From Adhaeribacter rhizoryzae (lineage in GTDB: Bacteria; Bacteroidota; Bacteroidia; Cytophagales; Hymenobacteraceae), in assembly GCF_008629685.1 (NCBI RefSeq), contig NZ_VWSF01000001.1, positions 1-64,000 on the forward strand: a stretch of DNA of 64,000 nucleotides, written 5' to 3'. Position numbers and translations under genes: made by a program. The first letter of the stretch is position 1. Every line of letters starts with the position of its first letter. Positions 30,016-34,196 of the stretch are shown piece after piece. A model generated the notes under the pieces. It had not been told where the DNA came from. It saw only the letters and a program-made list of their open reading frames with translations, and ran no database searches.

Positions 30016-30603
30016 TTAAGGAGCTGCTTTTACGAGTTCGGTAACCGATAAATAGCCCCGGCCATCTTTGCGCACAACCTGCCAGCCTAGTTTTCTTAAA
30101 CATTTCCGGATAAAAATATTCAGGACGCCGTGTGCCACCAGTACGGTTTTGTTTTCTTGTGCGGCGTATTGTTGCAGCTTCTCGGCGCACTGGCGAGCCC
30201 GGTTTTGGGCTTCTTTGTAGGTTTCGATGCCCTGGTTGTTCAGGCCCAGCAGCCACAAGGCCCGGGCACCGGCTAGCCATACTTTAATCGGGAAGCGGAA
30301 CAAAGGCAAGGATAATATTTTGCGTTCGCATTCATTAAATAATTTATCTTCTACCAGTTCCACTTCCGGACCAAATATTGCCAAAGCCGTTTGTTTTGCC
30401 CGCGGCAGCAAACTGCAATGCACCCGTTTTACTTCGGTAAATGGCAAACCCGTGGGTTTGTTAATAATGTTTTCTATACCGGCCGCATCGTATTCCGAAA
30501 TAAACTGCGTAGCCTGGGTGGCATCAAATAAGCCTTGCTGGTTAACCTTAGGCTTGTAGTGCCGCACCAGAAAAATATGCAGTTGCTCAGTTGGATGCGC
30601 CAT
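30016..30603 (-). CDS. Histidine phosphatase superfamily protein
   Basis: This 195-residue protein starts with the phosphate-binding loop LHIFLVRHYKP (the usual RHG is RHY here), with the nucleophilic His near residue 15. The middle has LLPRAKQTALAIF, holding the second Arg, and the C-terminal KTVLVAHGVLN holds the second catalytic His. Members remove phosphate from small molecules or proteins; the substrate cannot be named. It lies 26 bp after the large outer-membrane protein gene on the same strand and is probably co-transcribed with it. Confidence 0.85.
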   Translation of the reverse strand: MAHPTEQLHIFLVRHYKPKVNQQGLFDATQATQFISEYDAAGIENIINKPTGLPFTEVKRVHCSLLPRAKQTALAIFGPEVELVEDKLFNECERKILSLPLFRFPIKVWLAGARALWLLGLNNQGIETYKEAQNRARQCAEKLQQYAAQENKTVLVAHGVLNIFIRKCLRKLGWQVVRKDGRGYLSVTELVKAAP

Positions 30604-30629: not shown

Positions 30630-33600
30630 TTAGAACAGGAAACCGGCCCGTAACAAAGGCATGCGGCTTTCTTTCGAAACAGCGTATTCTGCCGATAGTA
30701 CCAGCAAATTAACCGGCGAAATCCAGATGCCTCCCCCGTAACCGGTGTGCCACTTTTTAGAATTCTCGTTTTTCTCCCACACCCGGCCAATATCATGAAA
30801 GCCCAGGATACCCATTGAGCCCGGAAATAAATAAGTCTGGAAGTTAAATAATTTCAGGCGAGCCTCGGTGTTATTGTAAAAGCTGCTGCGCCCGGCAAAG
30901 CGGTTTTGACGGTAACCCCGCAGGTTAGATAAGCCATCGAGGCGGTTTGCCTGGAAGAATTCGTAATCGCCGTAGTTTTTAGCGGCACCTGTGCGGTTGG
31001 CTAGGGTAAGCCGCACGGGTACCCGGAAAGTACGGTATAAACTAACCTCGCCCGATAACCGGTTAAAATCAGAAGCATCTCCGCCCAAACCTTTATACAG
31101 GCCCGGACCTAATGCAATATAAACGCCCTTGGTAGGTTGGCTGGCTTTATCGCGGGTATCTAGCTGGTACCTGAATTCCAGACCACCGTACGTTTTAGCT
31201 TCAAATAAATTGTAGTTGCCCTCTTGCTCCCAGGCAAAATTGGTAATAAACCGCTCGGGCGTAAGGTTCAGGTTTATGCGCTGGTACGATGGACCCAACA
31301 GCAAGGTCTGGCTCTTGCCAATTTTGCGGCCCAGCATGGCATTAAAATAATATTGCCGCGATGTATAACGGTAAAAATCAATTTCTTCTTTATCCTCGTC
31401 GTACTGGGTTTCGTTACCTAAGCCAAAAAAGGTGGTATTAAAATTAGGCGCCCGAACATCGAAGTTTAGTTGTAAATCGAATTTTTTAATAATATGGGTA
31501 AAATAGCCGTCGTAGGTAAAGCGGTACGAGTTGGTGCGCAGCGCGTATTTGCCTATTATTCGGTGGGAAGCCGCAAACGGCTCTTTTTTAAAACCCTGGG
31601 TTTTAATTAAAGCCCCGGCTCCGAGTTGTATACCGTTATCGCGGTTAAATTCTATGGCGCCCAGCGGACCAAAATAATCGTACACAAAAGCTTTGCGGTC
31701 GTATGCGTTTACTTCTTCGCGGTTAGAAGTCAGGTTTTTGGTTTCCGGCCCAAACTTAAACTCGTTTTCGGCGCGGGTATCGTACACGTAGGTTTTTTTA
31801 GAGAGGCCGGCAACTTTAGAATTATCGGTAATTTTATCTTTATCATCGCCGCCAATAATGCGCACTTTTATACCCTTGTTTACTTCTCCTGATATCCGGA
31901 ACTCATCTTCGCCCCCCAAACCATACAACCGGATTTCTTTTGTTTCGGCGGTTTTAAACTGGCGCTGATAAATAACTTGTTCTAAATCGCCGGATTTACT
32001 GATTTTGCGCACCGTAACGTTGGTGTGCGCATCGTCTTGCCGCTCTACCAAAAATAATTCAGATTTATCGCTGCCGACTACATCTACTTCTTTGGCCAGG
32101 AACTTATAATAATCAACGGCATCGCGGGGTAAGGCATCCCGGCGGGCTTTCAGGTCCGAAATAATGCGCGGCCCGGATAAGCGGAATATTGGTGCGGGCA
32201 GTTGCTTAATAGATTTTTCTATTTCAGCATCGCTAATAGAATTTTTAAGATCGTTGGCCGTCTCCAGCCAATCAGTTAATGAAAGTTCTGTTAAGAAAGT
32301 GCGGTCGAAATAGCGGGCATTAAAGTTAAAGCTGGCTACATCGCGAATATCATCGTCGAAGCCCTGAATTTTAGGTAGCAACCATTTACGGCTGGCAATA
32401 TTGGGAATTACGCCCTGGTTTATAAAAAAAGCCATGTCGCGGTCGCGCGGAATAGGCTGGAAAATATCGCCTTTCTCGCCTTGCTTTTCGAAACTGGCCC
32501 AGCGCCACTGGTCGTCGTGGCGGTCCCAGTCGCCGATTATAAAATCAAATAATCGGGCCCGCGCCACCGATTTCTGGTCTACTTTGTTGTCGTTGTCTTC
32601 CTGCAGGTTTTCGAGTACTTTTTCGGTGCCCTTTACATTTTTAGAATTACCAAAATGCGGCGCATCCGACTGGTCTTCGTCCGGCCGCTCTTCAAATAAA
32701 CCTACTGTGTTGGCAAAACCTTCGCGGTATTTACCCAGACGCGGATCGTCGGGGATGTAAAAATATTGCGGATTGGTGTGGTATATTTTGGCGGCATCGG
32801 CCAAACTACCCAAGGTAAGCGGGGCATAAGGGTGCGAAGCAGAAATCTGGTCTTTCACCACATCGGCCGCAATGGTTTTGCGCAAAGGCCGGGGCAGAGC
32901 CGCCGCCGGGTACTTTTCTACGGAACGCAGCACGTATTCGCGCCCGGTAGAGTCGGCGAGGCGCAACGACCGGGTCTGAAACCCGCCACCTTGCTGCACT
33001 ACTTTCAGGCCACCTTTTACTTGGCCAATATCAAAATAAGGCAGTTGTACTTTAGTGGCCCATTCTTCGCGGTAATTTTCGCCCATGAGCCACTTCCGGA
33101 AATTGCTGGCTATGTAATCGGTGCTGGCGCTAACGCTTTTAACACTATCGGCGTAATTAAAATGCTGACCTTTTAAGCTGGCGGTTATCATGGCTTGGGT
33201 AGGTTTGCGCATGAGCAGGGTGCGGTAAGCTACCTGACCGGTGGTGTTGCCGGGGTTGGCCGCCGTAATAAATTCGAGCCAGGCCTCACCGTTTTTATAA
33301 AAATTTACGCGGGCTACTCCGGCTGTATCGGCCGCGAACAGCTCCTTTTCGCCTTTGGGTAATTTTATTTGACCTGCTTTATTGCCAACCGAAACATAAT
33401 GAATGCTATCGGAAAAACTGTGGCGCAGGGCAGTACCATTATTTTCGATGTAAATAAGACCAGGATGCTGCTTAAAAAACTGGGCAAAATTGCGGCGCAG
33501 GTATTTATACTCCATTGGTTTTATAGTCTGCGGAATATTGGCCGCCACTATAACCTGCTTTTCGTCGTAATTGCGCAAAATATCATCGAGCAGGGCCACC

Positions 33601-34196
33601 ACCTGCGAAGGTCGGGTTGCGGGGCAGGTGCTAAACTCATCGGTTATTTCGTTGCCGGGCAACAGCCGGCGGGTATCCAGCAGAATAAGTAAAATATCCT
33701 GGTTAATGTGTATTTCCAGCGGACCGGGGCAGCCGCCTTCGGGTACAAATATTTTTTCGTTCTGGAGGTGGGTTGCAATAAATGCTTCCTGGCGTTGGTA
33801 AGGTTTATCGTCGCGGTCGGTTTTACCGCCCGGTGCGCCCGGTATAATCATGGCTTTGCCCTCGTAATTGCTTAAGGGCGCCAGTTGTTCTTTAAGCTTG
33901 TTTTCTTCGGTTGCCCGGTTTTCTTTTTGGTTGTCGGGCAAGGTTTGGGGATATAGCGGATTGCCAATAAAGACAACACTGCTATTTTTACCGGCCGCCG
34001 GCAAAAGCTGGCTAAGAATAGGGGTAACTATTTGCTTAGCGTTTGCTTCGCCGGTGTTGCCGGTTACAATTACCGAGTAAGTTAGTTCGCTGTTGGGTGA
34101 GGCCGGTATATTGGGGGTTTGTGCCTGGCTTAAAGCCGGAATAGTAATACAAATATATACTAATAGTTGTACATATTTAGAAAGTGGCAGGTACAT
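30630..34196 (-). CDS. Outer-membrane protein: degenerate metallophosphoesterase, kinase-like middle and BamA-type barrel
   Basis: This 1188-residue protein has a signal peptide (to about residue 25). Residues ~40-300 follow the calcineurin-like phosphoesterase pattern, but the metal ligands are gone: GNTGE at 46, GNPLYP at 78 instead of GDNIYP, PGAPGG at 119 instead of GNHD, and VAANIP at 217 instead of AGHHP. Residues ~390-690 hold FDFIIGDWDRHDDQW (GDWDRH at 555-560) and RDRDMAF at 584-590, like the catalytic and metal loops of HipA/CotH/FAM20-type kinases (inference). Residues ~840-1188 are an Omp85/BamA-type beta-barrel (GLEFRYQLDTRD, ending RMPLLRAGFLF). The likely site is the outer membrane. 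The cargo and reaction are unknown. Confidence 0.8.
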   Translation of the reverse strand: MYLPLSKYVQLLVYICITIPALSQAQTPNIPASPNSELTYSVIVTGNTGEANAKQIVTPILSQLLPAAGKNSSVVFIGNPLYPQTLPDNQKENRATEENKLKEQLAPLSNYEGKAMIIPGAPGGKTDRDDKPYQRQEAFIATHLQNEKIFVPEGGCPGPLEIHINQDILLILLDTRRLLPGNEITDEFSTCPATRPSQVVALLDDILRNYDEKQVIVAANIPQTIKPMEYKYLRRNFAQFFKQHPGLIYIENNGTALRHSFSDSIHYVSVGNKAGQIKLPKGEKELFAADTAGVARVNFYKNGEAWLEFITAANPGNTTGQVAYRTLLMRKPTQAMITASLKGQHFNYADSVKSVSASTDYIASNFRKWLMGENYREEWATKVQLPYFDIGQVKGGLKVVQQGGGFQTRSLRLADSTGREYVLRSVEKYPAAALPRPLRKTIAADVVKDQISASHPYAPLTLGSLADAAKIYHTNPQYFYIPDDPRLGKYREGFANTVGLFEERPDEDQSDAPHFGNSKNVKGTEKVLENLQEDNDNKVDQKSVARARLFDFIIGDWDRHDDQWRWASFEKQGEKGDIFQPIPRDRDMAFFINQGVIPNIASRKWLLPKIQGFDDDIRDVASFNFNARYFDRTFLTELSLTDWLETANDLKNSISDAEIEKSIKQLPAPIFRLSGPRIISDLKARRDALPRDAVDYYKFLAKEVDVVGSDKSELFLVERQDDAHTNVTVRKISKSGDLEQVIYQRQFKTAETKEIRLYGLGGEDEFRISGEVNKGIKVRIIGGDDKDKITDNSKVAGLSKKTYVYDTRAENEFKFGPETKNLTSNREEVNAYDRKAFVYDYFGPLGAIEFNRDNGIQLGAGALIKTQGFKKEPFAASHRIIGKYALRTNSYRFTYDGYFTHIIKKFDLQLNFDVRAPNFNTTFFGLGNETQYDEDKEEIDFYRYTSRQYYFNAMLGRKIGKSQTLLLGPSYQRINLNLTPERFITNFAWEQEGNYNLFEAKTYGGLEFRYQLDTRDKASQPTKGVYIALGPGLYKGLGGDASDFNRLSGEVSLYRTFRVPVRLTLANRTGAAKNYGDYEFFQANRLDGLSNLRGYRQNRFAGRSSFYNNTEARLKLFNFQTYLFPGSMGILGFHDIGRVWEKNENSKKWHTGYGGGIWISPVNLLVLSAEYAVSKESRMPLLRAGFLF

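Follow-up and report, generated by a model that had tools for sequence, protein, structure and literature searches.

The gene at positions 30630..34196 on the minus strand of the window (the 64,000-nucleotide stretch of an Adhaeribacter rhizoryzae contig analyzed here, from a 6.5 Mb Bacteroidota genome) encodes a protein of 1188 amino acids (aa), in which a signal-peptide-like start is followed by a former phosphatase domain, a kinase-fold domain, a beta domain and an Omp85 barrel. Our preferred interpretation, to which we assign a probability of roughly 0.55, is that this protein is a kinase-fold phosphotransferase anchored in the outer membrane, and that in the clade of the window protein a dead phosphatase has been retained as a constrained domain. 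The working unit would be an exported phosphotransferase of the PI4KII/CotH/CtkA/HipA kind, which a TamA-like barrel would hold on the periplasmic side of the outer membrane. In the widespread four-part form, the kinase would be paired with an active-looking metallophosphatase of the purple-acid-phosphatase type, and the two may act against each other or one after the other on a substrate in the envelope, be it a lipid or a protein. Within the clade formed by Adhaeribacter and Rufibacter, the metal site of the phosphatase would have been lost and the domain kept in a binding or regulatory role, with the kinase site retained.

The open reading frame (ORF) list and the translation of the window place the gene at exactly these boundaries, and all window features described below lie on the same, minus, strand. 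The gene is considered real rather than a chance frame because a contig search found a homologue in A. aerolatus with 84% identity along the full length, and because in every one of the four domains the ratio of nonsynonymous to synonymous substitution rates (dN/dS) against the two nearest relatives is 0.05-0.16. The N-terminus (residues 1-26; 34119..34196) resembles a signal peptide when read by eye, suggesting that the protein is exported. At E values up to 1, the Omp85 barrel is the sole domain that Pfam names in the window protein.

Relatives were drawn from two sets. The first comprises the best 80 of 519 loci from a contig search (the 80-locus set), recruited partly with the peptide WDRHDDQW. 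The second is a survey of the phylum, of which 30 loci (one being the window's own) and 40 further stretches were used and other listed places left out; its query was the kinase-beta part, so that kinase presence is by construction and forms without kinase-beta are under-sampled.

The kinase-fold middle domain

An earlier note on this DNA had proposed a HipA/CotH-like kinase in the middle of the protein, and structure prediction agrees with this proposal. Modeled with AlphaFold2 from 60 aligned members (predicted local distance difference test score 91.4, predicted template modeling score 0.91), the middle region adopts a two-lobed kinase fold rather than one unlike kinases. The top Foldseek match is CotH (PDB 5jd9; E 5e-4). 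VIA, which re-ranked the Foldseek matches only, gave Z 14.9 for PI4KII-beta (247 residues aligned, root-mean-square deviation [rmsd] 4.2), Z 14.1 for CotH (252 aligned, rmsd 4.2), Z 13.2 for CtkA (228 aligned, rmsd 4.7) and Z 10.9 for HipA (216 aligned, rmsd 4.2), with PI3K/PI4K-type members also at Z 10-12. These matches cover model residues ~50-366, equivalent to residues 384-700 of the protein, and together with the model and a CotH profile alignment they delimit a domain at residues 384-702 (32091..33047). FAM20 is not among the 50 structure matches listed, an absence that is no evidence against such a likeness. The model therefore supports the assignment of the middle domain to a fold like that of the PI4KII, CotH, CtkA and HipA kinases.

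Profile comparison with hhalign also relates the family to CotH (PF08757). With the wider alignment, the score was 34.8 (E 5.1e-4), as against 12.8-19.2 for three other domains from these proteins and reversed profiles run as controls in the same test and 34.4 for HipA versus CotH. In a narrower alignment of 27 of the 30 loci (three were cut by contig ends and dropped), GDWDRH is paired with the NLDSY loop of CotH, and PRDRD with WDVNE; in the wider one, the first loop is aligned again and PRDRD is displaced, so that the metal loop is aligned in one comparison of two. The best PDB sequence match, CtkA, is weak (E 0.32) and lies on the same DRH loop (DRHNGNW in CtkA, DRHDDQW here). The family also differs from each of these kinases. 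Identity in the structural alignments is 13% with CotH and 10-12% with the PI4KII lipid kinases, the latter matched over the same span by a domain in a bacterial outer-membrane context. Unlike CotH, the window protein is apparently exported, is barrel-linked and gives no PF08757 match (E up to 1, HMMER filters on). To our knowledge, CtkA and HipA kinases are not barrel-linked. A Pfam scan of 60 members matched HipA_C in one (E 0.12), among hits that look like chance in the 25 of 28 families considered, and PF08757 is not one of those 25.

The candidate active-site residues occur in the order found in kinases, as judged from order and conservation. Alignment places a glycine-rich loop, GGGFQTRSLR, at residues 403-412 (32961..32990), followed by Lys428 (32913..32915; 163 of 170 domain rows), a candidate nucleotide-site lysine, and by Glu502 (32691..32693; 166 of 170), which may be the lysine's partner or a hinge residue. 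The catalytic-loop-like GDWDRHDDQWRW (residues 555-566; 32499..32534) was recognized from the alignments and the CtkA and CotH comparisons, and the metal-loop-like PRDRD (residues 583-587; 32436..32450) from the alignments; GDWDRH (555-560) and PRDRD are both present as previously quoted. All eight of K428, E502, D556, D558, R559, H560, D585 and D587 are found in 156 of the 170 rows, to which one protein contributes two. The kinase profile was built from 166 of these rows; alignments A1 and A2 hold 60 and 58, near-copies and incomplete rows having been left out. Invariance of the DRH loop in the 80-locus set is partly by construction, because those loci were found partly with WDRHDDQW. Survey rows are free of this recruitment bias, and in them the eight residues are intact in 37/37 rows with a phosphatase and in 24/38 without one. 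Some frames of L197-L203, L212, L214-L216, L221 and L222, phosphatase-less forms in every case, are possible pseudokinases.

Taken together, fold and residues suggest phosphotransfer. Several observations weigh against this interpretation. The Foldseek matches have low TM-scores (for CotH, TMq 0.26) and 9-10% identity, and no more than three have E <=0.001, including YihE at a probability of 0.44. The hhalign probability for CotH is 31% with the wider alignment and 6% with the narrower (score 29.4, E 0.0057), and HipA, compared using the eight of 30 rows that passed a motif filter, is weakly related to the family (24.4, E 0.021, probability 2.3%). None of the Pfam kinase models is matched by the window protein, and HipA_C is matched in one of the 60 members scanned. 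Some key residues are lost in 14 of the 170 rows, all of them phosphatase-less and some partial matches. In 161 of 170 rows, Gln563 stands where HipA/CtkA-type kinases carry an Asn after the catalytic loop, and it is aligned to that Asn in the CtkA sequence match; this Asn is presumably metal-binding in CotH/PI4K/HipA-type kinases. The chief difficulty, however, is the phosphate donor, since we know of no ATP source in the periplasm and ATP is not expected there.

A domain that is catalytic but uses another donor, or performs another reaction such as nucleotidyl or other group transfer, would fit an ATP-free periplasm. Export on a protein with an Omp85 barrel, the conserved Gln563 instead of Asn, the DRD of the metal loop and the existence of barrel-less forms with an N-terminal hydrophobic stretch (by eye) are all consistent with such chemistry. 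However, ordinary phosphotransferases have the same Lys/Glu/Asp set, and no sign of an alternative cofactor is seen, so we regard this possibility as unlikely without dismissing it. That the kinase-fold phosphotransferase is the core of the system is supported by its occurrence without the phosphatase, without the barrel, or alone, in the survey made with the kinase-beta query.

The degenerate phosphatase domain

Residues 38-335 (33192..34085) form a degenerate calcineurin-like domain of the purple-acid-phosphatase type. The own-family profile, in which the window protein is included, matches it in two pieces (1.2e-59 and 1.5e-30). PF00149 does not match this segment of the window protein at E up to 10, but is matched above cut-off in L022, L002 and L003, and the phosphatase fold is assigned by homology to such relatives. 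Intact relatives carry GDxG, GDxxY, GNHD, HHP and GHxH, which we take to be the purple-acid-phosphatase motif set. Alignment with them indicates that in the window protein GDxG is replaced by GNTG (residues 46-49; 34050..34061), GDxxY by GNPLY (78-82; 33951..33965), GNHD by GAPG (120-123; 33828..33839), GHHP by ANIP (219-222; 33531..33542) and GHxH by NNGT (252-255; 33432..33443). A loop of about 50 residues after the ANIP position is also gone. Only Y82, the Tyr of GDxxY, remains of the seven metal ligands. The earlier note had already described the loss at GNPLYP (78-83), GAPG and ANIP, all of which are present, and the damage extends beyond those motifs to GDxG and GHxH. The sequence thus supports the view that this domain is a pseudo-enzyme.

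Metal binding could in principle have been taken over by shifted residues. Asp, Glu, His, Cys, Tyr or Asn residues fixed in the 14-row clade described below and present in <20% of intact relatives were considered as candidates. Four positions qualify (N79, E229, N253 and E304), two of which are Asn substitutions on old ligand sites. No consistent replacement set emerges across the 14 members, and a new ligand set was rejected; weak metal binding by Asn at the old sites is possible. The window protein retains two cysteines, C156 and C191, each of them conserved in 96 of 123 rows, which suggests a putative C156-C191 disulfide.

Together, the two sets of relatives yielded 123 phosphatase domains, of which 121 could be scored; L076 and a second, short frame in L032 are truncated. 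The seven ligands are complete in 93 of the 121, at least two are lost in 27, and L065 lacks the Tyr only. Near-identical Rufibacter rows inflate the count of damaged domains, and among survey loci alone it is 3/38. All 27 damaged proteins retain the eight kinase residues, so that damage to the phosphatase ligands never coincides with loss of kinase residues in this sample.

The history of this damage was followed on a rapid maximum-likelihood tree built from 124 rows of kinase-plus-beta sequence, with Shimodaira-Hasegawa approximate likelihood ratio test support only and without an inferred root. Labels were given to 119 proteins, of which 92 count as intact (L065 among them) and 27 as damaged. 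Five phosphatase-less proteins were left unlabeled, and L076 was excluded. The label requires at least 10 state changes, seven of which are forced by strongly supported branches, although the positions of the damaged L003, L211, L217 and L223 are unsure because of their long branches. On this tree, phosphatase damage arose several times. We read the changes as losses of an intact phosphatase, since intact forms match PF00149 and are scattered over the whole tree. The window protein falls in an Adhaeribacter-Rufibacter-Sabulibacter clade of 14 rows (support 99), all damaged.

Selection was assessed in ten hand-picked pairs, with high synonymous divergence in several. Among three Adhaeribacter genes, dN/dS of the dead phosphatase is 0.11-0.16, as against 0.057-0.062 for the kinase domain, and in three Rufibacter pairs it is 0.078-0.135. 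Over all six damaged pairs, the phosphatase value is 0.078-0.155, or 1.4 to 2.7 times that of the kinase; in four intact pairs it is 0.022-0.060, or 0.6 to 2.1 times, with three of the four at 1.6-2.1. Decay of the dead domain was rejected, as dN/dS is low in every damaged pair, and by this measure the domain is under purifying selection. No special relaxation is demonstrated for it, because a ratio near two is also usual in intact pairs.

Barrel, family forms and neighboring genes

The C-terminal part (residues 841-1188; 30633..31676) was identified by Pfam and structure as a 16-strand barrel of the Omp85/TamA type, as had been proposed from the sequence. PF01103 matches it with E 4.7e-15, the full-length model (predicted local distance difference test score 85.7, predicted template modeling score 0.76) has 16 long barrel strands, and comparison with TamA gave Z 27.3 (289 aligned, rmsd 2.7), with BamA also matched. 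Pfam names no POTRA domain in the window protein (E up to 1). Between kinase and barrel, the model, own-family profile and alignment define a beta domain (residues 703-840; 31677..32090) with GGxGxD-like turns that by eye resemble short RTX-type repeats. The N-terminal parts of Omp85 proteins such as BamA and TamA normally face the periplasm. By analogy, the kinase and phosphatase parts would lie on the periplasmic side, and the surface location that had also been considered is less likely.

The likeness of the barrel to TamA and BamA raises the alternative that the protein is one of the Omp85 factors for assembly or transport, with both N-terminal enzyme-like domains serving as scaffolds that replace POTRA. 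In their main text, Heinz and Lithgow 2014 (PMC4104836) propose that new Omp85 subfamilies act in assembly by default, and the repeated loss of the phosphatase metal site and the decay of kinase residues in the 14 phosphatase-less rows would also be consistent with scaffolds. Nevertheless, the key kinase residues are intact in every phosphatase-bearing protein examined, and kinase forms without a barrel exist; we give this alternative little credence.

The kinase-beta part was matched in 92 of the 247 Bacteroidota genomes sampled in the survey. Own-family profiles distinguish several architectures, with frame lengths counted stop to stop: phosphatase-kinase-beta-barrel (~1190-1370 aa), kinase-beta-barrel (~855-963 aa), kinase-beta (~500-590 aa) and kinase alone (429-433 aa, four loci). 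L113 encodes its phosphatase in a gene of its own beside the one for kinase-beta, and L213 shows the beta domain and the barrel but no match to the kinase. Neither Pfam nor NCBIfam names a kinase in the window protein or the tested relatives. In three kinase-beta-barrel proteins, these databases recognize the barrel only (NCBIfam below its cut-offs), and such proteins would therefore appear to lack a known N-terminal domain; one kinase-alone protein has no match in either.

The A. rhizoryzae genome holds four further matches to the middle domain: a four-part paralogue with an intact phosphatase (C1:257196-260864), a second four-part paralogue (C52:16158-19724) and two shorter paralogues without a barrel match (C52:145942-147393 and C34:36617-37912). 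A stand-alone phosphatase gene lies at C34:30184-31188. Around these C34 copies (locus L230, C34:24000-42000), a phosphatase and a kinase-plus-beta part are encoded separately, no more than 7 kb from genes that by eye are diacylglycerol-kinase-like and phosphatidate-phosphatase-like. Because of these neighbors, and because PI4KII is the top structural match, a lipid can be offered as a reasonable first guess for the substrate, and only as that.

Neighboring genes were counted at the 73 of 80 loci whose family frame starts beyond base 1300. In 39 of the 73, the gene immediately upstream, in the same orientation, encodes a beta-propeller of the SdiA-regulated type (for example L023:6758-7702 and L071:6927-7856), PF06977 being matched in 4/4 of those tested, and this protein is a likely functional partner. 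Five damaged loci have the propeller gene, all of Marinifilum or Labilibaculum type; it is absent beside the window gene, and the propeller matches of that genome are on other contigs. An HD-type gene, mostly divergent, is nearby in 41/73, with HD and PycTM (Pycsar effector) found in 2/2 tested. Genes of this type lie on the minus strand at L023:5297-6511, L041:6496-7746 and L227:5445-6650. HD was not matched in four scanned neighbors of the window gene. By eye, an HD-type gene stands divergently upstream of the intact C1 paralogue, which for this reason looks like the conserved family copy, the window gene resembling a lineage-specific one.

The gene 26 bp downstream of the window gene (30016..30603), outside the counted system, encodes a histidine phosphatase, as previously described (PF00300, E 1e-8). 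The suggestion that it acts as the active counterpart of the window protein fared less well. It adjoins the gene on the same strand, and a match is retained beside two other Adhaeribacter genes, L010 and L011, but not in Rufibacter or the other loci searched (ORFs of at least 150 aa). Its N-terminus has no signal peptide by eye, so the enzyme is probably cytosolic, whereas the window protein appears to be exported; a partnership of the two is highly improbable.

Published Omp85 subfamilies and biological meaning

The family can be compared with an Omp85 subfamily called 'Metallo', which according to the main text of PMC4104836 is defined by an N-terminal PF00149 domain plus a barrel and conserved at the genus level, and which 'noNterm' barrels are said to resemble. 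That text calls PF00149 a metalloprotease (the Pfam name is calcineurin-like phosphoesterase) and does not contain the words 'kinase' or 'phosphatase'. As the relatives studied here share the N-terminal family and barrel class, they probably belong to 'Metallo' as so described, although the kinase-beta part is spread phylum-wide rather than within genera. The window protein, which has no PF00149 match, would be a member by descent, as placed by the tree, and not by profile. If these are the same proteins, a kinase-like domain would explain both the 'Metallo' and the 'noNterm' groups. Titles and abstract starts in the literature searched, from which most subscription papers fall outside, describe no kinase domain in Omp85 proteins, and the accessible text of a paper on the F. 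johnsoniae BAM machinery (PMC12611786) contains none of 'kinase', 'phosphatase' or 'phosphoesterase'.

A wider proposition, offered tentatively and at somewhat less than even odds, is that Bacteroidota possess a family of unrecognized outer-membrane/periplasmic kinases, forming the common domain of Omp85 proteins now filed under 'Metallo' or as having no N-terminal domain, which phosphorylate envelope lipids or proteins and in which evolution has repeatedly inactivated the attached phosphatase. If this is true, phosphorylation at the outer membrane would become a testable process across the phylum (92/247 genomes), with the puzzle of its power source, and the published subfamily would need a new reading. 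The repeated changes from enzyme to pseudoenzyme beside an unchanged kinase site would provide a natural series. The question thereby raised is that of phosphorylation outside the cytoplasm, by a kinase-shaped domain that recurs across the Bacteroidota.

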